From contig NZ_BFCB01000003.1 in the NCBI RefSeq assembly GCF_003569045.1, positions 930,001 through 994,000 of the forward strand: a stretch of 64,000 bases of DNA. The letters run 5' to 3'. The translations under genes and the position numbers were made by a program. The stretch's first letter is position 1. Each line of letters begins with the position of its first letter. The stretch is from Aggregatilinea lenta (GTDB lineage: Bacteria; Chloroflexota; Anaerolineae; Aggregatilineales; Aggregatilineaceae). Positions 6,001-25,895 of this stretch are shown here, in pieces. The notes below the pieces were generated by a model. It saw only the letters and a list, made by a program, of their open reading frames with translations, was not told the DNA's origin and did not search any database.

Positions 6001-9000
6001 GATGCGTCGTTGTAGTCGGGATCGGCGCTGGTGGGATCGCCCGTTTCGATGGTGCAGGGCTGATCGTCGTCGTCGATGTCGTCGTCGACGGCGGTGATGG
6101 TGACTGCTACGCCGGCCTCCCAGCTTGCCGCCGGGATCTGAACTTCGGACGGGGTCGCACATTCGGTGTTGCTGGCCGTCAGCGGGATGGTCACCGTGTC
6201 GGTGGGCTGGCTGGTCAGCGAGACGGTGAAGCTGCTCGACGTGCCCGATTCGCTCACAGTGATATCGGTCGGGCTGACGACGATGCCCGCCGTGTCGTTG
6301 TCGATGACGGTGACGGTGACGTCCGCTGCATCCGTCTCGATCAGATCGTTATAGTTCGTGTCGGGACTGGTCGGGTCGCCGGTGATGACGGTACAGGTGC
6401 GCGCCGGGGTATTGACGCTGTCGTCGTCTACCGCCGTCACGGTGACGGAGACGCCGGTTTGCCATGCGGTGCCCACGTTGGAGATTACCGCCGAGGCCGG
6501 GCTGACCGAGCACGCGCTGGTGGGCGAGGTGCTCAGCGGCACGGTGACCGGGGCGGCGGGCTGGCTGCGCAGGCGGATGGTGAAGGTCGCGGTTTCGCTT
6601 GGCTCGATCACGCTGATGATGGTCGGCAGGACCGTGATGCCGGGGCCGTCGTCATCGGTGACGCTCACCGTGACGTCGTCCGGGTCGATGCTGCTGTAGT
6701 CGGGATCGGTGCTGCTGAGCGAGGTCGCCAGCAGGCAGTCGCGCACGCCGCCGGGGTTGATCACGCTGTCGTCGATGGCCGTCACGGTCACGGACGCGCC
6801 GGTGTCCCAGTTCGTGCCGTCCAGCACAGCCGTGCCGGGCGCGGTGATTTCGCAGGCCGGGTTCGAGGCCGGCGCGGTGAAGGTCACGGTGACGGAGGTG
6901 CCCGTGGCGGGCTGGCTGCCCAGGGTCACGGTGATGTTTTGCGTGCCGACCGGTTCCGCGATGGTGGGCGCGGTAGGGTTGATGTTCACCACGGCCTCGT
7001 CGTTGTCGGTGATCGACACACTGAGGGCCAGCGGTCCGGCCTCCGGTGCGAGCGCGTCCACCTTGAACTCGGCGGCATCGAACAGATCGTCGGTCGCCGC
7101 CGTGTCGATGGTATGGGTGATGTCGTCGCTGTGCGGCCCTTCGATGGTGGAATCATCCACCGCGCGCACCCAGACCGTGACGCCGCTGCTCCACGTCGTA
7201 TCGGTCAGGGTCACGGTCGCGCTGCTGGCGAACGTCGCGCCGTTGGTGCTGATCTCGATCTCCGCGCCTGCCGACAGGTCGATGACGACGTTCCCGGCGG
7301 GCCGCGAGCTGAGCTTGAGCGTATAGGTGTCCTGGTCGAGGCTGGTGGAAGGCGTCGCTTCGCGCACGTCTACCGAGTTCGAGGTGCGTGTAACGATCAC
7401 CTGGCGGAGCACGCTCAGTTTGGCGACGAAGCCTTCGGGCGGGGTCGTCGTGGCGTCGGCGGGGCCGAGCAGATCGATCTGGATCGATGCCGTTTCGCCC
7501 GCGATGTACATCGCGCCGTCCGCGTCCACGGCAATGCCGTAGCCGAGGTCGTTGCTTGCGCCGCCGTAGGTCGTGCTTTCGGCCAGTGACTGTGTATCCC
7601 CCAGTGTCGTGTCGAATTTGGACACGAACGCATCCTGCCCGCCGCGCTGGACATTCGGCGACAATTCCAGCGGATTCTTCTGCGGGAAGCTCGGCGTGGA
7701 TCCGGGCGTTGTGGTCGTGCCGACGATGTACGCGTTTTGCAGTGTGTCGACGGCGATGGCTTCAGCCTGATCGTCCAGCACGCCGCCAAGGTAGGTGTTG
7801 TACAGGACCGTGCTGCCGTCGGCGCTGAGCTTGAGCAAATAGGCGTCGTAGCCGCCGTTGGAAGTACTGTCGTAGGTCAGTGCGCCGGGCACGTAAGCGT
7901 CGCTGGAGGTCGTGCGGCCCGTCACGTAGGCGTAGCCGGACCCGTCGACGGCGATGCCATAGCCGTCGTCGTCCTGGCCGCCGCCCCACAGGCGGCTGTA
8001 AGCGCCCGCGCCAGTCCACGTGCCGCTCGCGTCGAGCCTGGTCACGAAGGTGTCGAACGCGCCGTGATGGGTGCTGCCCGCGACAGTCACCGGGAAGTCG
8101 GCGGATGCGGTCGAGCCGGTGACGTACGCGTTGCCCGATCCATCCACCGCAATGCCGCCGCCGAGGTCAGTGGCGCTGCCACCCAGGATAGTGACATAGG
8201 CGGGCGCGCTGCCGGGGGCGATCTTCACGACGAACGCGTCGCTCGGCGTGCTGGAAGTGCGGGTCTGGCCCAGGAAGCTGGTCGAAGTCGTCGTGCCGGT
8301 CAGGTAGGCTGCAGTTCCGTCAAAGGCCAGGTCGGTCGCCTCGTCGGTGCCCGCGCCGCCCAGGTAGGTCGCGTAAGTCAGTGCGCCGGTGTTGTCCAGC
8401 CGGACCAGCACGGCGTCTTCCGCGCCGCCGCCAAATGTGGCCTGATGAGCGCCCGTGTTCGGAAAGTCGGTCGAGTTGGTAAAGCCCGCGACGTAAACGT
8501 TGCCGCTGGCGTCTACCGCAATACCGGTGGCGTTGTCGCTGCCTGCGCCGCCGAAGATGGTCGTGTAGAGGATGCTGGCGCCGTCCGCGCTGAGCTTGGT
8601 CACGAAGATATTCTGACCTGCCGGGGGAGTACCTACCGCCCCGGGGAAGTCCGCGCTGGCGGTGTTGCCGGTGATGTACGCGTTGCCGAGGTCGTCCACG
8701 GCGATGGCGCGCGCGCCATCGCTGCCCGTGCCACCCAGGTAGGTGCTGTAGACCAGGATCGGGTCGACGACGAGCGGCTGCGTCGTGTCGTACGCGCCCA
8801 CGGCGAAGCCAATCGTGCCGTCGTTGGAAAGCACAAAGCGGCTCTCGACTGAGATCCGCTCGCCGTTCACGTCCTGGTAGGCGTAGGGTGCTTTATGCCT
8901 CAGCACCCCGTCTCCCACTTGCAGCAGCAGGTCGCCGCCCTCGTCCAGGCGGATGCCCGTCGCGCCGTCGAGGCCCAGGCGTATGAGGTCGGGCGATGCG

Positions 9001-11452: not shown

Positions 11453-12241
11453 CTATTCCAGGTCGCGCGGGGGCGGGCCGTCGTAGCCGTGATCGGTGGG
11501 ATGGATGGCACGCATGGGACGCTCGCGCGTTTGCTCCTCGTGGATCTGCGCGATCAGACCCGGCACGCGCGCCATGATGAAAAAGGCGTTGGCGAGCGCG
11601 GGCGGCAGGTCAAGGTCGATCAGCAGCGCGGCAATCGCCCCGTCTACGTTGATCGGCAGCGCCCGCCCGGTCTGGCGTTCGAGCGCCGCCGCCAGCGCGC
11701 GGACCGCCGCAACGCCCTGCCCGGCGATCCCCGTTTCTTCCGCCAGCGCGAACAGGCGCGCCGTGCGCGGATCGGCGGTGTGGATGCGGTGGCCCAGGCC
11801 CGCGATGCGCTCGCGGGCGGCGCGGCGGTTAGCGACCACCTCGTCGGCGGCAGCGCCGAGCCGGTCCGCGTCTCCGGCGGCGAGATGGAGCACCTGGAGC
11901 AGGGTGTTCATGCTGTTTTCGATGGCCGCGCCGTGATACTGGTTGATGCTGAGGATGCCCGCCGCAATCGCCGCATTGAGCGGCGCGCCCGTGCTGGCGG
12001 AGGTGCGCGCAGCCAGGGCGGAGGGCGGCGTCGCGCCGTGGTCGATGGAAGCGACCAGGATCGCGTCGAGCAGGCGGCCCGTTTCGGGCGTGGGCAGCGT
12101 ACCGGTCAGCGCGAGGTAGATCGCCTGCGCGAAAGTGACGCGGCCCATCAGCTCGTCGATGCGGTAGCCGCGCAGCCGCACTTCGTTGGGCTGCACCTGC
12201 GTGATGGCCGAATTCCAGTGCAAATCGTCATGCTCGCTCAC
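11453..12241 (-). CDS. Citryl-CoA lyase-like (citrate synthase superfamily) protein
   Basis: 262 residues from GTG 12241, which overlaps the end of the SucD-like gene by 14 bases and has AAAGGGG upstream; an earlier in-frame ATG at 12319 would add an unconserved N-terminus. The chain is short for citrate synthase (about 380-430) and fits citryl-CoA lyase. Superfamily active-site landmarks are present: NQYHGAAIEN, GLGHRIHTADPR, and the aspartate in NVDGAIAALLID. Known members cleave citryl-CoA to acetyl-CoA and oxaloacetate, or related acyl-CoAs. With the two upstream genes it forms the split counterpart of ATP-citrate lyase (SucC-like, SucD-like, CS-like). It is last in the LacI-led operon. 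The exact substrate is inferred and could be another 3-hydroxyacyl-CoA such as malyl- or citramalyl-CoA. Confidence 0.8.
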   Translation of the reverse strand: MSEHDDLHWNSAITQVQPNEVRLRGYRIDELMGRVTFAQAIYLALTGTLPTPETGRLLDAILVASIDHGATPPSALAARTSASTGAPLNAAIAAGILSINQYHGAAIENSMNTLLQVLHLAAGDADRLGAAADEVVANRRAARERIAGLGHRIHTADPRTARLFALAEETGIAGQGVAAVRALAAALERQTGRALPINVDGAIAALLIDLDLPPALANAFFIMARVPGLIAQIHEEQTRERPMRAIHPTDHGYDGPPPRDLE

Positions 12242-13166
12242 GAAAAGCCCCTTTCGTGTCCAGTGCGCCGATGCGTTCCAGCACGTCGCGCGCGGCGGCG
12301 GGGATGTCGTTGAAGGCATCCACGACCGTCGCGCCCGCGTCGCGCAGCCGGGCGACTTTGCCCTCGTGCGTGCCGCGCCCGCCCTCGATGATCGCGCCCG
12401 CGTGGCTGAAGCGCGTCCCGCTGCGCGCGCTCTTGCCTCCGATGTAGGCGATCACCGGCTTGGTCAGTTCGCCCGCTTCGATCAAATCCGCGACCTGTTC
12501 TTCCTGCGACGTGCCGATTTCCCCGAACAACACAATCGCTTTCGTGGCCGGGTCCTGCTCGAAGAGGCGCATCACGGCGGGATGGGGCAGGCCGACGATC
12601 GGATCGCCGCCGACGTGCACCAGCGTCGAGGCGCCGATGCCCGCCTGGGCGAGATAGTACGCCATGCTGGTGGTGATGCCCCCGCTGCGGCTGGAGATGC
12701 CGACCGGGCCGGGGAAAAACCATTCGCGGGCGCTGGCGGCGCGCCCGCCCATCATGCCGAGAACGCCCTGGCCGGGGCTGAGCACGCCGAGTGTGTTCGG
12801 GCCGACGAACTGCGCTCCGGCGCGCTGCGCGGCATCCGCGATTTCGAGTACGTCGTAGATCGGTACGCGGTCGGGCACGATGACCAGCAGCTTCACCCCG
12901 GCGGCGATGGATTCCAGCGCGGCGCTTTTGACCAGCGGCGCGGGGATGAACAGCACGCTGATGTCGATCGGGCCGGACTGTTCCCAGGCTTCGCCCACGG
13001 TGTCGTAAACGGGGATGCTCTCGATCGTCTGGCCGCCCTTGCCCGGCGTGACGCCCGCCACGACCTGTGTGCCATAGGACGCCATCAGGCGCGTGCGCGC
13101 CAACCCTTCGCGCCCGGTGATGCCCTGCACCAGCACGCGTTTCGTCGCATCAATGAGGATCGCCAT
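12228..13166 (-). CDS. SucD-like acyl-CoA synthetase (ADP/GDP-forming) alpha subunit
   Basis: 312 residues, usual for the alpha subunit of succinyl-CoA-type ligases. The N-terminal CoA-binding fold has VQGITGREG and GKGGQTIESIPVYDTV. The ligase domain carries FSHAGAIIEGGRGTHEGK, in which the histidine of HAGAII corresponds to the phosphohistidine of SucD. The reaction type is ATP- or GTP-driven thioesterification of a carboxylic acid with CoA. It overlaps the SucC-like gene by 17 bases and the lyase by 14, so the three are almost certainly translationally coupled. The pairing with a citrate-synthase-like lyase argues for a citryl-CoA-synthetase-type enzyme rather than TCA-cycle SucD. Substrate is inferred. 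Confidence 0.85.
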   Translation of the reverse strand: MAILIDATKRVLVQGITGREGLARTRLMASYGTQVVAGVTPGKGGQTIESIPVYDTVGEAWEQSGPIDISVLFIPAPLVKSAALESIAAGVKLLVIVPDRVPIYDVLEIADAAQRAGAQFVGPNTLGVLSPGQGVLGMMGGRAASAREWFFPGPVGISSRSGGITTSMAYYLAQAGIGASTLVHVGGDPIVGLPHPAVMRLFEQDPATKAIVLFGEIGTSQEEQVADLIEAGELTKPVIAYIGGKSARSGTRFSHAGAIIEGGRGTHEGKVARLRDAGATVVDAFNDIPAAARDVLERIGALDTKGAFRERA

Positions 13167-14721
13167 GCGTCACCTTCCCCTGCTGCGCGCGGTACGCGTC
13201 CAATCCGGCGATGGGCAGATCGACATACCCGCCCTTGTTGCCCTCGAAATAGCACTCGACTTCGCAGGCCAGGCACTCGATGCAGCCGCCGCGTTTGGCT
13301 GCGTCGCGGGTGATGTTCAGCACCGGCACATCGCCGTCGAGCGATAGGATCTGCGGCACGCACGATGCGATGCATGCTTTGCTTTCGCAGTTGCGGCAGC
13401 GGGCGTGATCGAGCGTGACTGTGCCGCCCGTGATCGTCTCGAAGCTGTATGGCTCCTGCGGATCTCGCCGGGCGTAACCGGACGTCGCGCCGGGCGCGGC
13501 GCTGCCTTCCGGGATCAGGTCGCGCAGGCGGGCGGCGCAAAAATCGGGCGAGTCGTCTTTGCCGTAGGCTTCGACCGGCACGGGCAGTTCCGGCTGGGCG
13601 CGCTGCAAGATGGCGATGGCCTGTTCTTCCGCATTGCCGCCGAGCCGGATCACCGCCGGGACGGCCAGCGGTTCTTCCAGAAACGCCTTGACCAGCGCGC
13701 GGGCGGAATGGAACTGCTCCTGGCTGGCGACGCCGCTGCCGCTGGCGAAATAGCCGTCGATGCCGGGCTGGCTGAGGATGATGCGCGCCGCGCGGTAAAC
13801 CTTGCTGGCGGGCGGATTGCCGCTCGTGTCCACGAAGTTGGCGATGCGCAGGCCGTGCGCTTGCAGCGCGTCCATGCTCATCATGCTGCCGCCGCCGCCC
13901 GCCCCGTGGAAGCCGACTACGCCCTGACCGGAGGCGAACTCCTGCTCCATCTGGATGAAAAAGAACGTGCCGCGATAGTCGCCGCGCTCCACGTCCCAGG
14001 CGATTTTCTCCAGCGGCGTCGGCGGGCGATCCAGCTCGCGCGCGAAGCTGATCTCAAGCTCCGGGTGGCGGAACACGGCGTAGTCGTCGATGGTGAAGCG
14101 GCAGTCCGCCGCCACCAGACGGCCATCGGCGGTCAGCACCAACGGGTTGATCTCCGCCGCACGCGCGTCGTAGTGCCGGGCGGCGTCGTAGAGCTTCGGC
14201 AGGAAGCCGCCCAGCTTGAGCAGCAAATCGCCGTGCAGCTCGGTGCGCCGGACCAGCTCGCGTGCTTCGAAATCGCGCAGGCCGAGGCGGATGTCGATGG
14301 CCTGCCGCGCAACGCGGTCGGGATGCTCGCGCGCGATGACTTCCACGCCGGAGCCGCCCAGACTGCTGAAGATCATGACCGGAGCGCGGGACTGGTCGTC
14401 GATGATCACGCCCGCGTAAAATTCCTGGGCGATGTCCAGCCGCTCCTCGACCATCACCTGCTCGACGGGGAAGTGGCCGATGGTCATGCCGAGGATGGCC
14501 GCTGCCGCATCGCCCGCCGCCGCCGGATCGTCCGCGAAGCGGATCGCGCCCATCCCGGCGCGCCCGGTCACCCACGCCTGGGCCTTGATCACGACCGGTC
14601 CGCCGATCTCCGCCGCAAGCGTGCGCGCCTCACCGGCGCTGGCCGCGACCCCGCCGCGCGGGATCGGGATGCCAAACTGCGCCAGCAGCGCCTTGCCCTG
14701 ATATTCGTGCAGTTTTGCCAT
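13150..14721 (-). CDS. SucC-like acyl-CoA synthetase beta subunit fused to a C-terminal two-cluster ferredoxin domain
   Basis: 523 residues from ATG 14721; SucC is normally about 390. The first 400 residues match SucC: MAKLHEYQGKALLAQFGIP at the start, the ATP-grasp domain, ARAAEINPLVL, GAGGGGSMMSMD, and a CoA-ligase fold near 300-400. The extra C-terminus carries CRNCESKACIASC from residue 442 (CX2CX4CX3C) and CIECLACEVEC near 480 (CX2CX2CX3C), enough for two iron-sulfur clusters. It is transcribed between the second ADP-ribosylglycohydrolase and the SucD-like subunit, with 4 bases to the former and a 17-base overlap with the latter. I know of no standard SucC with such an extension. The domain could couple the ligase to a redox partner, or be structural. 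Alternative in-frame starts further upstream fall inside the preceding gene and are rejected. Confidence 0.85.
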   Translation of the reverse strand: MAKLHEYQGKALLAQFGIPIPRGGVAASAGEARTLAAEIGGPVVIKAQAWVTGRAGMGAIRFADDPAAAGDAAAAILGMTIGHFPVEQVMVEERLDIAQEFYAGVIIDDQSRAPVMIFSSLGGSGVEVIAREHPDRVARQAIDIRLGLRDFEARELVRRTELHGDLLLKLGGFLPKLYDAARHYDARAAEINPLVLTADGRLVAADCRFTIDDYAVFRHPELEISFARELDRPPTPLEKIAWDVERGDYRGTFFFIQMEQEFASGQGVVGFHGAGGGGSMMSMDALQAHGLRIANFVDTSGNPPASKVYRAARIILSQPGIDGYFASGSGVASQEQFHSARALVKAFLEEPLAVPAVIRLGGNAEEQAIAILQRAQPELPVPVEAYGKDDSPDFCAARLRDLIPEGSAAPGATSGYARRDPQEPYSFETITGGTVTLDHARCRNCESKACIASCVPQILSLDGDVPVLNITRDAAKRGGCIECLACEVECYFEGNKGGYVDLPIAGLDAYRAQQGKVTHGDPH

Positions 14722-14725
14722 GCGT

Positions 14726-16873
14726 TTACGCTTCCATTTCACCCACGGCGGGCGCAACGTTGAGCGCTTCGCAGCGGGTATGGCTGCCGTGCCACGTCGA
14801 AAGGCCGATTTGACCGCTGAGATAGGGTGCGGGATCGGTGAAGGCCAGCACGGTGCGGCCTTCGTCGCCGTGCGCCTCGACCGTAATGGTGTTTTGCTGC
14901 GCCGTGACGCGCAGCGTATAACGCGCGCCGTGCTGCCACGCGAACGCCGCCCAGGCGACGCGCTCGTAGTCCTGGCCCTGCTTGCGGTAAATCGCCAGGG
15001 TGCCGTCCGGCCCCAGGCCGCAGGCATAGGAGCGCTGCGCGCCCTGCATGCGCACATTGACGTAATGGTGATCGCCAATCAGCGGGACGAGGACCGCCGT
15101 CACCGTATAGTCGCGCCATGCGATGTCGCCCGTGTACGTCTCGCACAGGCCGATCCCGCTGCCGTGATACGCGCCGTCTTCGAGCCGCCAATAGCCGCGC
15201 AGCTTGGTCCACTGGCTGATGCAGCTGCCTTCGGCGCGCTCCCGCGCAAAATCGACGGCATAGGCCGGATCGCCGGACCAGTCCAGCGCGCGCAGGTGGA
15301 ACGCGCCCGTTTCCCAATTCTCGCCCAGGTTGCGCACCACGACGCCTACGCGTGAGAGGCACGCGCCCGCCAGCTCCGGCACGGTGTAACACAGGGTGTG
15401 CCATGCGCCAGGGGTGAGCAGCTCGCCGGGAGACTGGTGCGTCTCCTTATAATGATCGTCAGTGACGAACAGGCCCGCGTGCAGATTGTCCGGCGCGTCC
15501 GCAGGGACGAAAACCTCCGCCGTGACGGTCTGGCCGGGGTGGATCAGCGGCGTGAAGGTCGCGCCGTAGTAGTTGCCATTGAGCATGCCGGGGCGCAGGT
15601 AGGTGTCGGTGTAGATGCGCAGCTCGCCCTTTTTGTTGAGCTTACGCACGCTGGCTTGCAATGTCCCGTTCGGATCGGCCAGCATGGACTGTCGCAGATC
15701 GATCACGCGCCCGCGCTCGCCTTCCGCGTGGAAGTTCGAGGTCGAGCCGGGATAGTGGAAGTGGTAGCGGGGACGCGCCGGGGCTGCGGGTCCGCCCGCC
15801 AGCGCGCGACCCAGCGTGCAGAACAGGTCCGCGCATTGGGGAATAGTCAGCAGGTTGCGCGTGCCGATGATGCTGGCCGCGACCAGCAGATCGTTCATCG
15901 GTTCGCGCCAGCGCCATTCGATGCCGTCCAGGCCGACGACCACACCCATAATCGCGCCGACGTTGCCGACGTTGCAGTCGGTGTCCCACCCGGCCATGTT
16001 GGCGATCTGGATCGTGCGTGTGAAATCGCCTTCGCCGTACGCCAGGGCCATTGCCACCACGCCCGCGTTGGGGATGATGTGCACCTCGCCGGGATAGCGG
16101 TCGTAGCCGAAGTTGGCTTTCAAATAGGCGTAACAGGCGCGCCAGTCGCCGGGATGGGCGTGATAGAAATCGACCATCGCGCGCGTGACGCGGGCGAACT
16201 CGGACTCCGCCGGGACGAGCGACAGGCCGATCTCGATCAGGGTGAGCGGATCGCGCTCCGTGAATGCGGCGCTGACCAGCGCCGCGATGAAGCGCCCGCC
16301 GTAAATGCCGTTGCCATCGTGGGAGACGCTCGATGCGCGTGCGGCGAGGTCCGCCGCCAGCGCCGGATTGCCGGGCGCGACGAGGCCCCAGATATCGCTG
16401 AAGATCTGCCCGCCGATCTGCTCCGCGAGCGCCGCGCCGTTCTGCGCAATCGAGCCGCTGCGGGGCGCGGGGATGCCGCTGGTCAGGTTGAGGTAAGCGG
16501 TGTGCTCAGTCGAGACGCCGTAGCCGCCCCACCACAGCGTGCCGTGCTGGTCGCCCAGGTAGTTCAGCCACGTGTCCGCGATCTGCTGGGCGGTCAGGTC
16601 CGGCGACGCGCCGTAGTCTTGCAGCGCGCGGATCAGGATCATCGGCAGGGCCGTGTCGTCGTCGGGCTTGAACAGCTTGCCGGGCGCTTCGTTCAGGTAG
16701 GTGTCTACCGTGCCCAGGTTGCTGCGGATGTCGTCATAGGTCCAGCCTTCGAGCGGCGCGCCGAACCGCACGCCGACACACTTGCCGACCCAGCCTGCAT
16801 AAACCCGCTCGTCGTAGTCAGTAGGTATGCTAACCATCCCTCGCCTCGGTTTGTCATGCGTGCCATTTAACAT
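14726..16873 (-). CDS. ADP-ribosylglycohydrolase-family protein with C-terminal concanavalin-like domain
   Basis: 715 residues, about twice the usual family length. Residues 20-340 are the DraG/ARH fold: YAGWVGKCVGVRFG, then the metal motif DDDTALP near 70, and AGWDTDCNVGNVGAIMG near 290, which supplies the second set of magnesium ligands. After a linker, residues about 400-540 form a beta-rich segment and about 560-710 a LamG/DUF1080-like sandwich. Family members hydrolyse N- or O-ribosyl bonds on proteins or small molecules; beside a sugar importer a small N- or O-glycoside is more likely. No signal peptide is seen. ATG 16873 is taken, but its ribosome site lies within a hairpin (16874-16905); an in-frame ATG at 16837 (MVSIPTDYDERVYAGW) is a credible alternative. 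Confidence 0.8.
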   Translation of the reverse strand: MLNGTHDKPRRGMVSIPTDYDERVYAGWVGKCVGVRFGAPLEGWTYDDIRSNLGTVDTYLNEAPGKLFKPDDDTALPMILIRALQDYGASPDLTAQQIADTWLNYLGDQHGTLWWGGYGVSTEHTAYLNLTSGIPAPRSGSIAQNGAALAEQIGGQIFSDIWGLVAPGNPALAADLAARASSVSHDGNGIYGGRFIAALVSAAFTERDPLTLIEIGLSLVPAESEFARVTRAMVDFYHAHPGDWRACYAYLKANFGYDRYPGEVHIIPNAGVVAMALAYGEGDFTRTIQIANMAGWDTDCNVGNVGAIMGVVVGLDGIEWRWREPMNDLLVAASIIGTRNLLTIPQCADLFCTLGRALAGGPAAPARPRYHFHYPGSTSNFHAEGERGRVIDLRQSMLADPNGTLQASVRKLNKKGELRIYTDTYLRPGMLNGNYYGATFTPLIHPGQTVTAEVFVPADAPDNLHAGLFVTDDHYKETHQSPGELLTPGAWHTLCYTVPELAGACLSRVGVVVRNLGENWETGAFHLRALDWSGDPAYAVDFARERAEGSCISQWTKLRGYWRLEDGAYHGSGIGLCETYTGDIAWRDYTVTAVLVPLIGDHHYVNVRMQGAQRSYACGLGPDGTLAIYRKQGQDYERVAWAAFAWQHGARYTLRVTAQQNTITVEAHGDEGRTVLAFTDPAPYLSGQIGLSTWHGSHTRCEALNVAPAVGEMEA

Positions 16874-16905
16874 GCGGCCCCTTTCCAGGGACGAAAAGGG
16901 GCCGC
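16874..16905 (-). promoter_or_regulatory. Hairpin that masks the ribosome site of the 16873 start
   Basis: Arms GCGGCCCCTTT 16874-16884 and AAAGGGGCCGC 16895-16905 form an 11-bp perfect stem with a 10-base loop. On the transcribed strand the 3' arm contains GGAAAGGGG just before the start codon of the second hydrolase. It follows the binding-protein gene and so could lower readthrough or translation of the downstream enzymes, or stabilise the binding-protein message. Confidence 0.6.
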
Positions 16906-16929
16906 GTCGTGCCGGTTCAGTCGTCTCGC

Positions 16930-18228
16930 TTAGAAGTCGTAGTTGTCGTCCAGGCAGAACTGCGCCGTCTGCGCTTCTTCGCTCAACATCGATTCGAGAT
17001 CACGCTCGCCGTTCTGGACCCAGCGTACGCGCACGTTGTCGAACGCGGGATAGACGCAGTCCCAGAAGTACTGCGAGCGCAGGTAGTTGGCGACGCGTGT
17101 TTCCTTTTGCAGCTCGGCGTAGGGCACGCTGAGGATCGGGTCCGTGTCCCAACCGAGTTCCTGCCAGACGGCGGGGCTGTTCGACGGCCAGATGCCTGCT
17201 TCGGCGGCCATGAGCTGCGCGTCATGCGCGCCCAGCCACTCGATGAACTGCCACGCGGCGTCCTTGTGCTTGCTGTCCGACCACATATAGTGGGCGTAGG
17301 AGTCGGTCCAGGCGATGCCCGGCTCGTCGGCGCTGTAGCGCGGCGGTGCGACGACGCCCCAGTTGAAGGTAGCGTCTTCCATCAGCGCGGGCAGTTCCCA
17401 GTTGGACACCGACTGCATGGCGACGCTGCCGGACAGGAACACCAGCTCGCCGTACTGATCCTGCAGCTCCGCCGGGGCAGATACCTTGTCTTCGGTGATG
17501 AGGCTCAGGCAGTAGCTCCACGCCTCGACTGCTTCGGGCGTATCCATATAGCCCACGACATCCTTGCCATCGGGGCTGATCACGTCCGTCCCCAGGTTGA
17601 ACGACATGGGCGACCACATCATGCAGCCTTCGCCACCGTTGATCGCGCCGATGCCGTACTGGTCGTTCTCCGCGTCGGTGAGCTGCAGCGCGAGCTGGCG
17701 ATAGTCTTCGACCGTCCAGTCAGCTTCGGGATAGGCCACGCCCGCCGCGTCGAAGATGTCCTTATTGTAGGCGATAAACGCGGCCACAGCATCGCGCGGG
17801 ATGCCGTAGTAGTCGCCTTCGTAGACCGTGCGCTGCTGCGCGACGGGGAACCAGTCGTCTTCAGGATTGATCAACTCGGACGATTCGATGTAGGGCGTGA
17901 GGTCTTCCAGGAAACCCTGATTCGCCACGTCCGCCGCGTAGTAGGTGGTCCAGATATCGGGGCCTTCGCCCGCTGCAATCGCGGTGGCGACGCGGGTGTT
18001 AAAGGCACGGCTGGGGAACAGCGAGACGGCGACGCTGATGCCGGGATGCGATTCTTCGAAGGCGCGGGCCAGTTGGAAGTGCAGGTCGCGCGTGGCGGCG
18101 GTGTCGCGCCCGCGTTCGGTGCTCCACCACGTGATGGTGACGGGTTCGTCGTCCTGGGCCTGGATCGCTGCCGCCGGAACCAGCATGGCGACGATCACCA
18201 GCAGAATAATCCATGTGCGCTTGTTCAT
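16930..18228 (-). CDS. Sugar ABC transporter substrate-binding protein (family 1)
   Basis: 432 residues. An N-terminal signal peptide (NKRTWIILLVIVAMLVPAAA followed by IQAQ) precedes the mature start; there is no lipobox cysteine. VTITWWSTERGRDTA begins the first lobe, and AAGEGPDIWTTYYA is the usual region where a family 1 binding protein recognises its ligand. It captures a carbohydrate-like ligand outside the cell for the two permeases encoded upstream. TAGGAG precedes the ATG at good spacing. No ATP-binding subunit is encoded nearby, so a shared MsiK-like ATPase elsewhere is expected. The operon also encodes two ADP-ribosylglycohydrolase-family enzymes, which hints at a ribosyl- or glycosyl-linked ligand. 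Confidence 0.9.
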   Translation of the reverse strand: MNKRTWIILLVIVAMLVPAAAIQAQDDEPVTITWWSTERGRDTAATRDLHFQLARAFEESHPGISVAVSLFPSRAFNTRVATAIAAGEGPDIWTTYYAADVANQGFLEDLTPYIESSELINPEDDWFPVAQQRTVYEGDYYGIPRDAVAAFIAYNKDIFDAAGVAYPEADWTVEDYRQLALQLTDAENDQYGIGAINGGEGCMMWSPMSFNLGTDVISPDGKDVVGYMDTPEAVEAWSYCLSLITEDKVSAPAELQDQYGELVFLSGSVAMQSVSNWELPALMEDATFNWGVVAPPRYSADEPGIAWTDSYAHYMWSDSKHKDAAWQFIEWLGAHDAQLMAAEAGIWPSNSPAVWQELGWDTDPILSVPYAELQKETRVANYLRSQYFWDCVYPAFDNVRVRWVQNGERDLESMLSEEAQTAQFCLDDNYDF

Positions 18229-18348
18229 TGTGAGCAGTCTCCTAAAATGTCTCGAAAAAGAAGCTGAAAAACTTGCGAGCGTGTTTTCCTCCCGTGGCCT
18301 TCACCTCCTTCGGGCTGTCGCCACGATGTATGTACGGAAACCCGTGAA

Positions 18349-19209
18349 TTACCCTTTCAAACCATCGACCGAAATGCCCCCGATCAACTGCTTCTGCGCG
18401 AAGAAGAACAGGATCAGCGGCGGAATCATCGCCAGGACCGACCCGGCCATCAGCAGATTCCAGTTGGTTTCGCGCGCGCCCTGGAAGAAGCTCAGGCCGA
18501 GAGAGACGGTAAACATATTCGGATCGTTGAGGTAGATCAGCGGCTGCAAGAAGTCGTTCCACACGTCGATGAAGGTGAACACGATCACCAGCATCAGCGC
18601 GGGACGGGTGAGCGGCAGGATGATGCGCCAGAAGACGTCGAAGCGGCTCGCGCCGTCGATGTAGGCGGCTTCGTCCAGGTCGAACGGGATGCTCATCATG
18701 TACTGGCGCACCAGGAAGATCAGGAACGGGCTGCCCGTGAAGGCGGGCAAGATCAGCGGCCAGTAGGTGTTGATGAGGCCCAGCTTCGAGAACATGATGA
18801 AGCGCGGAACGAGCGTCACCTGATAGGGGATCATCAGCGTCGAGAGCATGACCAGGAACAGGATGTTACGCCCAGGGAAACGCAGCCGCGCAAAGCCGTA
18901 GGCAACTACCGTTACCGAGACGAGGTGCCCGGCGATGTTGGCCGCGACCAGGAACAGCGTGTTGGCGTAGAACCGCGCGAACGGCACTTCGTCGAACACC
19001 GCCGAGAAGTTGTCCCATTTGGCCGGGCTGGGGATCCATTCCGGCGGGATGGCGAAGGTCTGCGTTTGTGTCTTGAGCGCCGTCGAGAACATCCAGTACA
19101 GCGGGACCATAAATACGGCGGCCAGCACCATCAGGACCGTGTAACCGGAAAGGTTATTGAAGCGCTGCTGCCCGCGCAGACCCATGTGAAAGCGGTTGGA
19201 AAGCTGCAT
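18349..19209 (-). CDS. Sugar ABC transporter permease (MalG/UgpE type)
   Basis: 286 residues with six membrane segments. The EAA loop that docks the ATPase reads DEAAYIDGASRFDVFWRIIL, followed by PLTRPALMLVIVFTFID. The start ATG 19209 shares its A with the stop of the partner permease (TAATG), so the two are coupled; a longer in-frame extension to 20124 runs through the partner gene and is not real. It forms the inner-membrane channel with the 19209-20156 product and works with the binding protein at 16930-18228, 120 bases downstream. Confidence 0.93.
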   Translation of the reverse strand: MQLSNRFHMGLRGQQRFNNLSGYTVLMVLAAVFMVPLYWMFSTALKTQTQTFAIPPEWIPSPAKWDNFSAVFDEVPFARFYANTLFLVAANIAGHLVSVTVVAYGFARLRFPGRNILFLVMLSTLMIPYQVTLVPRFIMFSKLGLINTYWPLILPAFTGSPFLIFLVRQYMMSIPFDLDEAAYIDGASRFDVFWRIILPLTRPALMLVIVFTFIDVWNDFLQPLIYLNDPNMFTVSLGLSFFQGARETNWNLLMAGSVLAMIPPLILFFFAQKQLIGGISVDGLKG

Positions 19210-20156
19210 TATTTGGTCCTCTTGCGCTCCGCTTCGTAATAAACCCAGTAGCTTGAGCTGCGGAATACCACCAGCGTAATGACCATGATGAATGCGGTCA
19301 TGATCCAGGCCAGCGCGGACCCGTAGCCCATGCGCATCGACTCGAACGAGCGGTTGTAGATGTACAGCATGTAGAACAGGCCCGATTGCAGCGGCCCGCC
19401 GCTGCGCCCGGCGGCGATGAAGGCCGGGGTGAACGTCTGGAACGTGCCAATCAACCCGAGCACCACCTGGAAGAAGATCGTCGGGGAGAGCATGGGCAGC
19501 GTAATCCTGACGAACTTCTGCACGCGGTTCGCGCCATCGACTGAGGCGGCCTCGTAAAGCTGATCGGGCACGTTTTGCAGCCCGGCGAGGTAGATCACCG
19601 CGCTGCCGCCCACGCCCCACAGCGACATCAGGATGATGCTCGGCAGCACCCAGTCGGGATCGCTCAGCCAGCGCGGACCGTCGATGCCCAGCCCGTTCAG
19701 CATCGTGTTGACCAGCCCATAGCGCGGGTTGAGCACCCATACCCACACCAGCGAGCTGGCAACTTTGGGCACGATATAGGGCATGTAATACATGGTGCGG
19801 AACAGGCCGATAGCGCGCAGCTTCTGGTTGAGCACGACCGCGATCCCGATGCCGCAGAGGACCTCCAGGGGCAGATAGATCACGGCATATTTCAACGTGA
19901 CCATCACCGCCTTGCGGAAGTACGGGTCGGCGGTGAAAATGCGCTCGTAGTTGTCCAACCCGACCCACTGCGGCGTGCCGACGATGTTCCAGCGCGTGAA
20001 GCTCAGGAAGAACGACGCGATGATCGGCCCCGCGAAGAACACGATGAAGCCGACGATCCACGGCGAAATGAACAGGTAACCGGCCAGGGCTTCGCGCCGC
20101 TCGCTGTCGGAAAGCTGTGTCCAACTTTGGGTGAAGCGTTTGGTCAGGACACTCAT
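19209..20156 (-). CDS. Sugar ABC transporter permease (MalF/UgpA type)
   Basis: 315 residues. The first membrane segment reads YLFISPWIVGFIVFFAGPII, and the EAA loop YEAASVDGANRVQKFVRITL lies near residue 215. It is the MalF-like half of the importer encoded here, translated just before the MalG-like half with a one-base overlap. It starts 33 bases after the first ADP-ribosylglycohydrolase, with AAGGAG upstream, so it belongs to the LacI-led operon. Confidence 0.93.
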   Translation of the reverse strand: MSVLTKRFTQSWTQLSDSERREALAGYLFISPWIVGFIVFFAGPIIASFFLSFTRWNIVGTPQWVGLDNYERIFTADPYFRKAVMVTLKYAVIYLPLEVLCGIGIAVVLNQKLRAIGLFRTMYYMPYIVPKVASSLVWVWVLNPRYGLVNTMLNGLGIDGPRWLSDPDWVLPSIILMSLWGVGGSAVIYLAGLQNVPDQLYEAASVDGANRVQKFVRITLPMLSPTIFFQVVLGLIGTFQTFTPAFIAAGRSGGPLQSGLFYMLYIYNRSFESMRMGYGSALAWIMTAFIMVITLVVFRSSSYWVYYEAERKRTK

Positions 20157-20189
20157 ACCATACTCCTTAGGCGGCTCGACCCGGTGCGC

Positions 20190-21173
20190 CTAGAGCGCCA
20201 GCTCGACCAGCGCCTCCGCCAGCGCGATCACGTCTTCGTCCATGACGAACTTCAGGCTGACGCCGCTCGCCACGCGCACCTGCTCGACCCAGCGCGCCGG
20301 GATCACGTCGAGGCCGTGGCGCGCGCCGGAGAGCGCCCCGCACATGGCGGCGATGCTGTCGGCGTCGCGGCCAAAGTTGCACGCCCAGAACATGCCCTTG
20401 CGGAAATCGCCGTCCGTCAGGCGGAAGATGGCGAACATCTGCGGCACGGCCTCGGCACTCATCGAGTGCACGGGCGTCCACAGCGCCGTGTGCAGGTCTT
20501 CCCAGGCGTCTTCGACCGACTCCGCCGCATCGCAGATCGCCATCGCGCGGTCGAACGAACGCCCCAGCCAGCTGTCGGTGGGGATGTAGTCACGCGCTGC
20601 CATCAGAATGTCGTCCGTGGAGCCATCCACCATCGCCACGGCAATCGCTGCCGCGACGGCTTGCGCCGCCCAGATGCCATCCGCGTAGTGGCTGATCTCG
20701 GCGTCGATGCGGGCTAGCTCTGCCGCGCGGACCGGATCGCCCGCCGCGACGATGCCGATCGGTGCGACGCGCATCGCCGCCCCGTCGTCGTTGTTCTGCA
20801 CGTTGTCCCTGCCGGAGAGCGGTGGCAGGACGCCGCGCTTGATGTTTTCCACCGCGCCATAGAGCGGCTTGCCCGCGCGGTCGAAGATGCCGCCCTGGTC
20901 GATGATGTGCGTCTTCCACGCGGCCAGCACCGCGTCGGGCGTGAGGTCGCCGCCGCAGTCGAGCAGCGCGCGGGCCGTTAGCAGCCCGAACTCGGTGTCG
21001 TCCGTGCTCTTCGCACCAGGATACAGGGTGGTGACGATGCCATAGCGGCTGCGATAGGCGTCGCTGCGTCCGAGGTCGCCCATCGCGTCCCCGGTCGCCA
21101 GCCCGATCAGGCAGCCTTTGGCCTTACTGACGTAACTTGCTTTGTCCTGGTGCAGCTCGTCCTGCGTGCGCAT
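20190..21173 (-). CDS. ADP-ribosylglycohydrolase (DraG/ARH) family protein
   Basis: 327 residues, usual length. Landmarks are KGCLIGLATGDAMGDLG near 20-35, the metal motif STDDTEFG near 58, and NFGRDADSIAAMCGAL near 270. Together these keep the aspartates that bind two magnesium ions in the family. The reaction is hydrolysis of an N- or O-ribosyl link. Being first after lacI, with its own copy of the operator (21201-21217), it is probably induced by the same ligand as the importer that follows. A second, larger homolog lies at 14726-16873, so two family members serve one operon. A free small-molecule substrate is inferred from context; protein de-ADP-ribosylation is the alternative. Confidence 0.85.
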   Translation of the reverse strand: MRTQDELHQDKASYVSKAKGCLIGLATGDAMGDLGRSDAYRSRYGIVTTLYPGAKSTDDTEFGLLTARALLDCGGDLTPDAVLAAWKTHIIDQGGIFDRAGKPLYGAVENIKRGVLPPLSGRDNVQNNDDGAAMRVAPIGIVAAGDPVRAAELARIDAEISHYADGIWAAQAVAAAIAVAMVDGSTDDILMAARDYIPTDSWLGRSFDRAMAICDAAESVEDAWEDLHTALWTPVHSMSAEAVPQMFAIFRLTDGDFRKGMFWACNFGRDADSIAAMCGALSGARHGLDVIPARWVEQVRVASGVSLKFVMDEDVIALAEALVELAL

Positions 21174-21200
21174 ACGTTGTCCTTTAGCGTCGTGACGGTA

Positions 21201-21217
21201 ATGGGAACGTTCCCCAT
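21201..21217 (-). promoter_or_regulatory. LacI operator copy 2, before the ADP-ribosylglycohydrolase gene
   Basis: ATGGGAACGTTCCCCAT, with central palindrome GGGAACGTTCCC, is identical to the copy at 22276-22292. No clear promoter accompanies it, so it may repress by roadblock or loop with the upstream copy. Confidence 0.75.
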
Positions 21218-21233
21218 TTCACACAAAAAAACA

Positions 21234-22253
21234 TCAAGCGGGTGCGCTGGTCGTCTGCCGGATCTGTAAATGCCCGTCCAGCAGCAGCTTCTGCGGTACG
21301 TCGTGTTTGACGCCCCGGATCTTTTCCAGCAGCAGGTTCGCCGCCTGCACGCCGATCTCGTACTTGGGCTTGGCGACGGTGGTCAGCGGCGGTGAGGTCG
21401 TCGCGGCGGCGTAGATGTCGTCGATGCCGATGATCGACAGGTCGACCGGCACGGTGAGACCCGCACCTTGCGCCGCCAGCAGCGCGCCAATCGCGAGGAT
21501 GTCGTTCCCGGCCAAAACCGCTGTGGGTGGGTGGGGCAGGCTCAACAGCTGGCGCATGGCGTCCGCGCCGCCGGTACGTGAATAGGGCGCGCGCACCACC
21601 AGCGACTCGTCCAGCGCCAGCCCGGCTTGGTAATGCATGTCCGCGTAACACTGGTAGCGCATGTCGCGGTGGCTGCGCTGCGAAACACCCGCGATTAGGC
21701 CGATGCGCGTGTGCCCCAGCTCGATCAGGTGGCGCATGGCGGTATACACCGCGCCCGCGGAATTGCTGCCGACCGAGTCGAAGTCGGGATAATCGTCGCC
21801 GGAGCCGAGCAGCACCGCCGGGGTGCTGAGCGACTTCAGCTCGTTGTTGGTGATCTTGATGGGGTTGAGCACGATGCCGTCGAAGCGGTTGCGGCGCACG
21901 GTCTGGAGGTGATTCGCCTCGCGCGTGGCGTCCCAGTCACTGTTGAGCAGCGCGACCGTGTAACCCTGGACCTCGAAGGTGTCCTGCACGCCGCGCGCCA
22001 CTTCGGGCCAGAATGGGTTCATGATGTCGGGGATCGACAGCGCCACGATGAAGGTCTGGTCGGTGCGCAGGCTGCTGGCGATACTGTTACGCTCGTAGCC
22101 CAGCATCTGGATCGCGGCGTGCACGCGCGAGCGTGTGTCTTCGCTCACGCGGTCCTGCTCGCCGCTGATGACCCGTCCGACGGTCGTCTTGGACACGCCC
22201 GCCAGACGCGCAACATCTTTAATCGTGGGCTGTTTTAAGCGCATCCGTAACAT
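21234..22253 (-). CDS. LacI-family transcriptional repressor
   Basis: 339 residues. The N-terminal helix-turn-helix reads TIKDVARLAGVSKTTVGRVI, followed by the hinge helix and a periplasmic-binding-like sensor domain (FIVALSIPDIMNPFW; IDDIYAAATTSPPLTTV). It should bind the two identical 17-bp palindromes at 22276-22292 and 21201-21217. One overlaps its own predicted start site, so it is autoregulated and controls the downstream transport operon. An in-frame ATG at 22244 (MRLKQPTIKD) is an equally good start. The inducer is probably the imported sugar or a derivative. Confidence 0.92.
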   Translation of the reverse strand: MLRMRLKQPTIKDVARLAGVSKTTVGRVISGEQDRVSEDTRSRVHAAIQMLGYERNSIASSLRTDQTFIVALSIPDIMNPFWPEVARGVQDTFEVQGYTVALLNSDWDATREANHLQTVRRNRFDGIVLNPIKITNNELKSLSTPAVLLGSGDDYPDFDSVGSNSAGAVYTAMRHLIELGHTRIGLIAGVSQRSHRDMRYQCYADMHYQAGLALDESLVVRAPYSRTGGADAMRQLLSLPHPPTAVLAGNDILAIGALLAAQGAGLTVPVDLSIIGIDDIYAAATTSPPLTTVAKPKYEIGVQAANLLLEKIRGVKHDVPQKLLLDGHLQIRQTTSAPA

Positions 22254-22275: not shown

Positions 22276-22327
22276 ATGGGAACGTTCCCCATAGCAAAAT
22301 CGTAGCGGATTTCTCCGGCGGTGTCAA
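22276..22327 (-). promoter_or_regulatory. Promoter and LacI operator of the lacI-led operon
   Basis: On the minus strand TTGACA (22327-22322), a 17-base spacer and TACGAT (22304-22299) form a good housekeeping promoter. The operator ATGGGAACGTTCCCCAT (22276-22292) begins six bases after the -10 box and so covers the start site, the usual position for repression. Confidence 0.75.
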
Positions 22328-22499: not shown

Positions 22500-24041
22500 T
22501 CAGGATCGCCGTGCGGCGTGGGCCTGCCACACGGGGCGTAGCGCCTCGCGCAGCTGTGTATAGGTGGCGAACGTGGCCTCGTAAGCGCGCTGCGCCGCCG
22601 GATCGCATTCGTACACCTGGCACGCGCTGGCCGTGCGGTGTACCGCGTCCGCGATGAACGGGTACCAGCGGATGCCGACCGCCGCCAGCAGCGCCGCGCC
22701 CTTCGCGCCGAACTCGCTGCCAGCCGGGACCAGCACGCGCCTGCCGGTGACGTCCGCGACCATCTGGCAGAAGAATGCGCTCTTGGCTGCGCCGCCGGAC
22801 AGCCGGATTTCGTGGATGGCCGCGGGGATCACGTCGTAGCCGTCACGGATGGAGAAGGCCAGCCCTTCATACACGGCGCGCAGCAGGTCGCCGCGTGTGT
22901 GCTCGTTGGTCAGCCCGAAGAAGTCCGCGCGGGCGGCAGGGTCGGCCACGGGCGCGATAATGCCGTTGGCGCTCAGGTATGGCAGGTAGATCGCGCCGTT
23001 CGCCCCGATGGGACTGGCGCGAACCAGCGCCTCGACCCCCTCAAACAGCGCGGCGGTGGAATCCGCAGCGGCCTTTTCTGGCCCGCAGAACTGCTCGATA
23101 GCCCAGTCCAGGCTGGTCGTGCCGGAGACGTTGATCGTCGCGCGCAGCCAGCGGCCACCGGGCAGCAGGAACGACACGCCCACGTCGCGCGGCTCGAACA
23201 CGGGCTGATCGACCACGAGGCAGTTCAGGAAGTTCGTGCCCAGCAGCGAACACGCCACACCGGGATCGACCGCGCCGACGCCCAGCGCGGAGGCGGGCAC
23301 GTCACCCGCGCCCAGCACGACCGGCGTCCCGGCGGCCAGCCCGGTTAGCGCGGCGGCTCTGGGCTGCACGGTCCCGATAACCTGCTCCGAAGGCCGGATC
23401 GGCGGGAACAGGCGGCGGTATGCGTCCAGGCCGAACAGCGCGATCATCGCGTCGCTGTAGCCGCGGGTGCGGATGTCGCCGGGCATACCGGGCGCTTCGG
23501 TCGGATCGATCTGGATCGTGCCGGTGAGGTTGTAGGCCAGCCAGTCCTTGCAGCCGACGAGGGTAACGGCGCGGTCCAGCACGTCCGGCTCGTGTTCGGC
23601 CAGCCAGCGCAGCACGGGCAGCGTGCAGCCCTGCTGCATGACGCTCGCGGAGTGGTCGAAGATGTGCGACATGAAGCCCGGCTGTTCCGCACTGAAGCGG
23701 TCGATCAGCGGCTGCGTGCGACCATCCGCCCACAGGATCGCGTCGCGCACGGGGCGGCCCTGCGCGTCGAGCAGCCACGCGCCGACCATGTTGCCCGACA
23801 GTCCGACGGCGGCGATCTGCGCCGGGTCAACGTCGCTTTCCGCGAGCACGGCGCGGATCGCGCTGGCGGCCATGACCCACGTTTCGTCCATGCTGGTTTC
23901 GGCCCAGGCGGAATGCGGTGTTTTGACCGTGGTGCGCCGCGCAACCGACCCCACTTCGCGCCCGTCGGCGGTGAACAGCGCCGCCTTAACGACCGATGTG
24001 CCCGCATCGACGCCGAGCAAATAGTCCTGACTGGCTCCCAT
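22500..24041 (-). CDS. FGGY-family carbohydrate kinase (xylulokinase-like)
   Basis: 513 residues, normal for the family. YLLGVDAGTSVVKAALF is the N-terminal phosphate-binding motif; GLSGNMVGAWLLD and DAILWADGRT follow; LGAGDVPASALGVGAV and the C-terminal IRLSGGAAKSAFFCQMVADV are the ATP-site signatures. It transfers phosphate from ATP to an imported pentose, ketose or polyol in the cytoplasm. Last gene of the GntR-SIS-ABC operon, 16 bases after the MalG-like permease. The partner SIS isomerase suggests the phosphorylated product is then isomerised or deaminated. Substrate not determined. Confidence 0.9.
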   Translation of the reverse strand: MGASQDYLLGVDAGTSVVKAALFTADGREVGSVARRTTVKTPHSAWAETSMDETWVMAASAIRAVLAESDVDPAQIAAVGLSGNMVGAWLLDAQGRPVRDAILWADGRTQPLIDRFSAEQPGFMSHIFDHSASVMQQGCTLPVLRWLAEHEPDVLDRAVTLVGCKDWLAYNLTGTIQIDPTEAPGMPGDIRTRGYSDAMIALFGLDAYRRLFPPIRPSEQVIGTVQPRAAALTGLAAGTPVVLGAGDVPASALGVGAVDPGVACSLLGTNFLNCLVVDQPVFEPRDVGVSFLLPGGRWLRATINVSGTTSLDWAIEQFCGPEKAAADSTAALFEGVEALVRASPIGANGAIYLPYLSANGIIAPVADPAARADFFGLTNEHTRGDLLRAVYEGLAFSIRDGYDVIPAAIHEIRLSGGAAKSAFFCQMVADVTGRRVLVPAGSEFGAKGAALLAAVGIRWYPFIADAVHRTASACQVYECDPAAQRAYEATFATYTQLREALRPVWQAHAARRS

Positions 24042-24057
24042 GCCCGCTATCCCTGAC

Positions 24058-24885
24058 TTACTTGACCGCGCCGGCGGTCAGCCCTTCGACGAAGTTGCGC
24101 CCCACGAGGCTGAACAGGATCAGCACCGGCAGCGTGGTCGCGGTCGCGCCCGCCAGCAGCAGGCCCCAATCGATCTGGTACTGGCCGATAATGCCCGCCA
24201 GCCCGACGGGCAACGTGCGGTTGGCCTCGCTGATGATGAGGATCGACGAGAAAATGTACTCGGTCCACGAGGTGATGAACGCGAAGATGGCGATGCTCGC
24301 CACACCTGGCGCGGCCAGCGGCAGCATGATCCGCACGATGATGCCCAGCCGCGACGCGCCGTCGAGGGCGGCGGCTTCTTCCAGCTCGCGCGGGATGGTG
24401 CGGAAGAACGCTTGCAGCATCCACACCGCGAACGGTGCGGACAGCGTCACGTTGACGATGACCAGCGCAGTCAGACTGTCAACCAATTTGAGCTTGCTCA
24501 TCATCTGGTACATCGGCACCAGCAGCAGCACGCCGGGGAACGCGTAGGTGATCAGGATCACGCGGAACAGCGTGATGCGCCCCGGAAAGCGCAGCCGGTA
24601 CAGACCATACGCGGCCAGCGTGGACAGCACGACCGTGATCGCCATCGTGCCCACCGCCACGACGATGCTGTTGCGCATGTAGGTGGGGAAGGACGATTCG
24701 CCCAGCAGCTTGTCGTAATGCTCGGTGGTGAACGAGTGTGGAACGAAGGTCGGCGTGGCGCTGATAATCTCCTGCGGCAACTTGATCGACGAGGAGAAGA
24801 TCCAGTAGAACGGCGCCAGGACCAGCACCATCAGCACGAAAATGGACAGGCCCAGCAGCAGGTTATGGCGGAACCGGGAAGCCAT
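24058..24885 (-). CDS. Sugar ABC transporter permease (MalG type)
   Basis: 275 residues with six predicted membrane helices. The EAA loop is EEAAALDGASRLGIIVRIML near residue 170. It begins two bases after the stop of the MalF-like partner and is followed by the kinase. It forms the second half of the membrane channel for the ligand bound by the 25896-27197 protein. Confidence 0.93.
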   Translation of the reverse strand: MASRFRHNLLLGLSIFVLMVLVLAPFYWIFSSSIKLPQEIISATPTFVPHSFTTEHYDKLLGESSFPTYMRNSIVVAVGTMAITVVLSTLAAYGLYRLRFPGRITLFRVILITYAFPGVLLLVPMYQMMSKLKLVDSLTALVIVNVTLSAPFAVWMLQAFFRTIPRELEEAAALDGASRLGIIVRIMLPLAAPGVASIAIFAFITSWTEYIFSSILIISEANRTLPVGLAGIIGQYQIDWGLLLAGATATTLPVLILFSLVGRNFVEGLTAGAVK

Positions 24886-24887
24886 CG

Positions 24888-25844: not shown

Positions 25845-25852
25845 ACCGGAAA

Positions 25853-25877
25853 CCGGGGGAGCAACCTGCTCCCCCGG
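25853..25877 (-). terminator. Intra-operon hairpin between binding-protein and permease genes
   Basis: CCGGGGGAGCA 25853-25863 and TGCTCCCCCGG 25867-25877 form an 11-bp stem with a three-base loop. There is no T-run. Such hairpins commonly protect or partly end the message after an ABC binding protein. Confidence 0.7.
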
Positions 25878-25895
25878 CTGCGATGCAGTGCTGCG

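Follow-up and report, generated by a model that had tools for sequence, protein, structure and literature searches.

The 64 kb stretch of Aggregatilinea lenta DNA analysed here (the window; G000:C3:930001-994000, in a genome of 6.2 Mb) carries a nine-gene operon in which a LacI-family regulator, a sugar importer of the ATP-binding cassette (ABC) type and two hydrolases of the ADP-ribosylglycohydrolase (ARH) fold are joined to a trio, SucC, SucD and CCL, that looks like a citryl-coenzyme A (CoA) synthetase and citryl-CoA lyase (CcsAB and Ccl). Judging from gene families and neighbourhoods, we consider that the operon probably serves the LacI-controlled catabolism of an imported glycoside, whose aglycone would be a hydroxy-tricarboxylic acid, with citrate or a near relative of it as the likeliest candidate. 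The evidence that carries this proposal is the joint occurrence of ARH genes and the trio's type of SucC in the order, together with a sister operon on rhizobial plasmids in which unrelated enzymes take the place of the trio.

In the proposed pathway, the importer would take in the glycoside, which in some relatives may first be trimmed by a secreted-looking esterase. ARH2 and ARH1 would then serve as glycosidases in catabolism and probably cut a ribosyl-like furanosyl bond, with ARH1 holding the substrate through two domains resembling carbohydrate-binding modules (CBM). The sugar would pass to ordinary metabolism, perhaps by way of a ribokinase-type kinase, and CcsAB would make an acyl-CoA from the acid, using ATP and CoA; Ccl would then cleave this acyl-CoA, releasing acetyl-CoA together with a 2-oxo acid, which in the case of citrate would be oxaloacetate. 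We infer the substrate, the bond, the direction and every activity of this scheme. The trio suggests that the acid is citrate-like; the ARH fold, the handful of ribokinases and a cluster of paralogues with a nucleoside hydrolase, all described below, suggest a ribosyl-type sugar.

The operon and its products

The nine genes lie head to tail on the minus strand (11453-22253). The predicted features, in the order of transcription and with the basis of each assignment where given, are the following.

22299-22327, minus strand: sigma-70-like promoter TTGACA-17-TACGAT before lacI, directly before operator 1
22276-22291, unstranded: LacI operator-like site 1, ATGGGAACGTTCCCCA, before lacI
21234-22253, minus strand: LacI-family regulator (family profiles)
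21201-21216, unstranded: LacI operator-like site 2, before ARH2
20190-21173, minus strand: ARH2, hydrolase of the ARH fold, 327 amino acids, TDDT motif (family profile)
19209-20156, minus strand: PermA, ABC permease A, UgpA-like (family profiles)
18349-19209, minus strand: PermB, ABC permease B, UgpE-like (family profiles)
16930-18228, minus strand: SBP, sugar-type solute-binding protein (family profile)
14726-16873, minus strand: ARH1, an ARH domain followed by two CBM-like domains at model residues 368-533 and 540-711 (profile, model)
13150-14721, minus strand: SucC, CcsA-like large subunit of a CoA ligase (SucC-like, 523 amino acids) with a C-terminal eight-Cys ferredoxin-like domain at about 424-500
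12228-13166, minus strand: SucD, CcsB/SucD-like small subunit of a CoA ligase, HAGAII segment kept (profiles, relatives)
11453-12241, minus strand: CCL, Ccl-like citryl-CoA lyase (NF004869 over cut-off; best solved structure 6hxp)

From LacI to CCL the intergenic gaps are 60, 33, -1, 120, 56, 4, -17 and -14 nucleotides, taking the GTG at 12241 as the CCL start; the alternative ATG at 12319 gives a larger overlap with SucD. Relatives suggest a start near 16837 for ARH1. The Pfam and NCBIfam families matched are LacI, PF03747 (twice), BPD_transp_1 (both permeases), SBP_bac_1, ATP-grasp_2/sucCoAbeta, sucCoAalpha and citryl-CoA lyase NF004869, so the tightly spaced set of LacI, sugar importer, two ARH hydrolases and SucC/SucD/lyase trio described in the earlier note is present with all nine genes.

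The lyase scored 246.4 bits against NF004869 (cut-off 212), and its nearest solved structure is 6hxp, a citryl-CoA lyase (E 6.7e-52). SucC and SucD stay below the NCBIfam cut-offs for succinate-CoA ligase, and the C-terminal part of SucC is closest to the citryl-CoA synthetase 6hxq, with which it has GGGGS and GNPPAxKxY in common; at both segments the succinyl-CoA synthetases in the comparison differ. Nine SucC cysteines are invariant in 81/81 sequences, eight of them, in the C-terminal tail, with a spacing that we take to be ferredoxin-like, and residues 421-510 were modelled at a predicted local distance difference test (pLDDT) of 71-89. Profile matches of the tail were below cut-off, both for 2[4Fe-4S] ferredoxins (Fer4_9, E 0.056) and for the best profile from the PDB, a 2-oxoglutarate:acceptor oxidoreductase subunit (E 0.028). 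The putative ferredoxin-like domain is assigned from its cysteine pattern and from the model, and its role is one that we infer.

Both hydrolases exceed the PF03747 cut-off of 26.2 bits (ARH1 181.7, ARH2 164.8). ARH2 matches the Tri1 and DraG equivalog models far below cut-off, and ARH1 matches none. The ARH1 model (pLDDT 80.6, from 16 sequences) presents the ARH fold at residues 17-359 (Z 28; 28.1 in the comparison with ARH3), and its C-terminal 350 residues or so form two CBM-like domains, a sandwich (Z 18) and a CBM66-like one (Z 20.7), with a VIA-align list that is compatible with other folds too. No signal peptide was apparent by eye on ARH1. ARH-fold proteins have mostly been interpreted as signal erasers. 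Known members (DraG, the ADP-ribosylglycohydrolases ARH1-3, MJ1187) share the fold and the DDT motif with the operon proteins, whereas the latter sit with sugar import and the operon's ARH1 adds its two CBM-like domains. Protein de-ADP-ribosylation was set aside because no ADP-ribosyltransferase was present among the neighbours read, although no search was aimed at one. The same genome has a second ARH transport operon (L087, G000:C3:1071268-1080547), an unbroken series of genes for a GntR-UTRA regulator, an inosine-uridine nucleoside hydrolase, a sugar ABC importer and two paralogues resembling ARH1. The position of these paralogues beside a nucleoside hydrolase and an importer hints at digestive glycosidases, perhaps acting on ribosyl bonds.

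Regarding regulation, the near-palindrome GGGAACGTTCCC precedes both lacI and ARH2, and the window contains two matches to ATGGGAACGTTCCCCA, before these same genes, where 0.07 were expected. No operator-like site was found before the trio in the window; the trio lies within a single tight operon with such sites at lacI and ARH2 only, which we count in favour of the proposal. The sigma-70-like promoter is weak taken alone, since two promoter-like sites were found in the region and 1.6 were expected. Relatives were scanned for sites matching at least 13 of the 16 positions of ATGGGAACGTTCCCAT; 24 of the 41 sources had one (the weak site of L138 included, and with short contigs and loci without lacI among the 41), most commonly in the form ATGAGAACGTTCTCAT. 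None was detected in L081, though lacI and ARH2 are both there, nor in L222 (lacI cut) or L224 (a paralogous operon).

Conservation in the order and the rhizobial counterpart

By SucC, the nearest named relatives are Chloroflexota, many of them labelled Anaerolineae, Anaerolineales or Aggregatilineales. The ferredoxin-tailed SucC (SucC-Fd, E<=1e-80) was found in 27 of the 151 genomes sampled from the order, and 26 stretches of these genomes were read (L061-L086). The set of LacI, ARH2, importer, ARH1 and trio recurs wherever the contigs extend far enough, and the search for the same gene set that the earlier note had recommended thus gave a gene order repeated across other genera and families. 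Some loci have two extra ARHs, some lack ARH1, in many SucD and CCL are fused, and in many relatives the binding protein is swapped for a distant type (27-31% identity). In 10/26 loci the trio is followed by a PF00756 esterase with a signal-peptide-like start, as judged by eye (e.g. L079, 14221-15138), and this hints at an ester in the outside substrate.

ARH2 (E<=1e-60) is present in 25 of the 151 genomes: 23 carry it with SucC-Fd, two carry it alone, four have SucC-Fd alone and 122 have neither. The four without ARH2 all carry ARH1; the two with ARH2 only are 75% and 68% complete, and one of their contigs breaks within ARH1, before the expected position of the trio. Counting either hydrolase, an ARH occurs in 27/27 genomes with SucC-Fd, SucC-Fd in 27/29 genomes with an ARH, and neither in 122 (Fisher 7.7e-28, kinship uncorrected). 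By genus, the ARH2 co-occurrence is 16/2/1/42 (p 1.2e-11). Joint presence and absence were also observed in genera g180 and g197, among the members listed, and the co-occurrence persists in three genomes that keep the trio separate from the sugar operon. The isocitrate-dehydrogenase partner that the trio has in another context does not track SucC-Fd, being present in 5/151 genomes, two of which also have SucC-Fd (p 0.22).

Plasmid sequences gave no match to SucC-Fd at 1e-60. Relatives of ARH1 were found in 29 plasmid records (25 covering >80% of the query), of which 19, several unannotated, were read by tblastn. Eleven of these 19 loci, all rhizobial, present LacI, two permeases, a binding protein, a short ARH and ARH1 in a row. 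A pair of CoA-transferase III and CitE-type lyase is intact in five of the eleven (L236, L240, L244, L246, L247) and has broken frames in L249, while L243 has the CoA-transferase alone, with no lyase. A full ribokinase is present in two, in line in L239 and divergent in L242; L245 keeps a ribokinase fragment of 65 residues, and L241 has no CoA-transferase, lyase or ribokinase. The CoA pair was within reach in none of the eight other plasmid loci read, one of which (L237, Deinococcus) has a ribokinase. The rhizobial lyase scored 148 bits for citE and 110 bits for RipC, both below cut-off. In the ARH1 tree (midpoint root, quick method, L248 left out, L237 and L241 flagged as long branches), the rhizobial ARH1 is sister to that of the Chloroflexota operon, with a Shimodaira-Hasegawa-like approximate likelihood ratio test (SH-aLRT) of 100, and stands apart both from the remaining plasmid ARH1s in the tree and from the ARH1-like paralogues of the A. 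lenta genome. In addition, GGTAACGTTCCCA stands about 60-70 bases upstream of lacI in 5/6 rhizobial lacI genes tested.

The rhizobial operon (LacI-ABC-ARH-ARH1-UgpC-CoA-transferase-CitE lyase in L236 and L240) and the Chloroflexota one resemble each other in regulator, importer, ARH1 sister clade, operator-like site and the logic of CoA activation followed by a lyase. They differ in that the CoA step and the lyase are non-homologous, and in that two related rhizobial loci carry a ribokinase instead. That one slot is filled by unrelated enzymes, in each case for activating an acid and breaking a C-C bond, is the strongest evidence that the acid belongs to the imported substrate. Furthermore, the existence of two non-homologous CoA modules makes the question of the substrate testable in culturable rhizobia. 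Among the other plasmids, pMB8072_1 of Enterobacter hormaechei (L238) carries LacI, an ARH1-like protein and a solute-binding protein, with no permeases, beside nag and chi genes.

Other contexts of the trio and competing explanations

Several observations weigh against the glycoside proposal. A scan of a genome collection gave 368 relatives of SucC-Fd, and the best 80, which were kept, belong by their titles to Calditrichota, KSB1, Neomarinimicrobiota, Zixiibacteriota, Aminicenantes, Acidobacteria and others; 15 of these 80 loci have an ARH, 34 an aconitase-like, isocitrate-dehydrogenase-like or PrpD gene, and 31 neither, many of the last on short contigs. The trio is thus widespread without ARHs and able to serve central metabolism. 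Within the order, G304, G305 and G312 have SucC away from SucD and CCL (these two adjacent in G312), amid what by eye are housekeeping-type genes (e.g. dnaE and priA), and carry elsewhere a LacI-ARH-ABC operon without the trio, of which only 3 kb are visible in G305 and whose contig stops 0.4 kb past ARH1 in G304, where the second ARH differs from ARH2. G305 and G312 also hold a relative of the isocitrate dehydrogenase of the trio's other context. The earlier note had named a CoA module unlinked from the transporter as a finding that would refute a joint pathway, and it is what these three genomes and many loci outside the order present; the trio is consequently not specific to the sugar operon. 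Dispersed trio copies lack an operator-like site, except for one weak site 1.5 kb off. Full-length SucC scores better against succinyl-CoA synthetases than against citryl-CoA synthetase. The Chloroflexota operon has no sugar kinase, the only ribokinase over cut-off in the genome being located elsewhere. On the rhizobial side, ARH2 and the short ARH are 31% identical over 232 amino acids and the permeases 27-28%, the CitE-type lyase is under every curated cut-off, and the eleven loci are closely related, not independent cases.

The two contexts of the trio were compared further. On the SucC tree, the rows with ARH take three label changes (14.8 in shuffles), and the copies of L145, L146 and L149, with no ARHs nearby, fall among them; L157, classed as other, is a copy of the operon, because it begins at SucC and finishes with the esterase. 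At a threshold of 85%, the residues separating operon-borne from tricarboxylate-context copies number 0 in SucC (21 v 34 rows), 0 in CCL (17 v 32) and 1 in SucD (19 v 33), which suggests the same substrate in both. The isocitrate-dehydrogenase-like enzyme after the trio in the second context fits citrate, and homocitrate remains compatible. A sample of the phylum gave mostly ordinary SucC, with at most four candidates scored per genome, and was not used for absence.

The trio could be an ordinary ATP-citrate-lyase system for acetyl-CoA supply, induced by sugar import, with an imported substrate free of acid. Its frequent company of aconitase-like, isocitrate-dehydrogenase-like and PrpD genes outside the order, the lack of context-separating residues in SucC and CCL and the scattered trio genes of three genomes all fit such a system. 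However, an ARH accompanies SucC-Fd in every one of the 27 genomes, and the sister rhizobial operon uses an unrelated CoA-transferase and lyase and no ATP-citrate lyase, so that we find this explanation unlikely. A reductive role of the tricarboxylic acid (TCA) cycle in A. lenta itself was set aside, given that a full-length citrate synthase was found and the isocitrate-dehydrogenase partner gave no match at 1e-90.

Slightly better placed, though still rather improbable, is a pathway of the same shape for another acid, such as citramalate, malate, homocitrate or another 3-hydroxy acid, which overlaps with the proposal made here. CitE/RipC-type lyases cover several 3-hydroxy acids, and the rhizobial lyase matches both citE and RipC, each below cut-off; NCBIfam identifies the aconitase-like partner in L210 as a homoaconitase (743 bits, cut-off 530), and the L152 dehydrogenase is closest to homoisocitrate dehydrogenase, below cut-off. 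Against this stand the likeness of the C-terminal part of SucC to citryl-CoA synthetase and a lyase that passes the citryl-CoA lyase cut-off. It could also be that two unrelated functions came together in one operon by chance, since gene order in an operon may be neutral and ARH1 is missing (E<=1e-150) from 7/27 genomes with SucC-Fd. The repeated joint presence and absence, also in g180 and g197, and the non-homologous replacement in rhizobia make this very improbable. Catabolism of an imported glycoside of a citrate-like acid is the reading we retain. The route of the earlier note (uptake, cleavage of the glycosyl bond, formation of a CoA ester, lyase reaction) stands in part: the constant company of SucC-Fd and ARH, the rhizobial CoA pair (6/11) and the ribokinases (2/11) speak for it, and the unlinked trio elsewhere speaks against it.

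In the second context (L142-L221, e.g. L153, L161, L173 and L215, from several phyla), downstream of the trio lie genes for an HD-domain protein, for aconitase-like subunits and for an isocitrate-dehydrogenase-like enzyme, often with MmgE/PrpD as well; this neighbourhood may offer the TCA cycle another point of entry. Some of these loci (L152, L158, L161, L174) have, by eye, genes for HdrA-like iron-sulfur flavoproteins and 2-oxoacid:ferredoxin-oxidoreductase- and ETF-like genes near the trio; perhaps these encode the redox partner of the SucC ferredoxin domain.

Known systems, candidate substrate and neighbouring genes

The degradation of itaconate and citramalate, by a CoA-transferase and the citramalyl-CoA lyase RipC, follows the same course from acid to CoA ester to cleavage; unlike the operon, it involves no import or hydrolysis of a glycoside. 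Hydrogenobacter CcsAB and Ccl are alike in their three-gene layout, and among solved structures they come closest to the lyase and to the C-terminal part of SucC. The trio studied here differs in its extra ferredoxin-like domain and in its setting, which is an operon for sugar import and not a reductive TCA context. For Aquificales and Planctomycetes, excerpts of three papers describe CCS/CCL and a fused ccsB-ccl (PMC5459899, PMC9802188, PMC6137239), and an excerpt of one discusses the planctomycete fusion alongside type II ATP-citrate lyase (PMC5459899). This fusion is paralleled by the fused SucD-CCL of many relatives here. In the titles and abstract openings of the open-access literature searched, we found no ARH operon with citryl-CoA lyase, LacI, CBM or a catabolic role, and no account of the trio-ARH association or of the ferredoxin-like tail of SucC.

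Ribocitrin consists of ribose and citric acid, as its name also says, and we take it as a candidate substrate, a lead and not a result. It has been reported, in an excerpt of one paper, as a dextransucrase inhibitor from Streptomyces (PMC13136089). With much reserve, it may be conjectured that at least two phyla have an undescribed pathway for ribosyl-citrate (ribocitrin or a relative), in which ARH-fold ribosidases with carbohydrate-binding domains would release citrate, to be cleaved by a ferredoxin-tailed synthetase and lyase or by a CoA-transferase and a CitE-type lyase. If the glycoside proposal is true, one branch of ARH would be digestive, and PF03747 genes in transport operons would need a different annotation; glycosyl-linked organic acids would be a nutrient, and many uncultured groups would have a citryl-CoA synthetase that contains an iron-sulfur domain of its own.

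Immediately 5' of lacI and in the same orientation, the window contains a kinase that by eye looks of the FGGY type and a second sugar-type ABC importer (22500-27197); none of these genes was seen adjoining the operon in L061, L062 and L064. On the minus strand, positions 3-9191 are a single open frame of at least 3063 codons, which extends past the start of the window.

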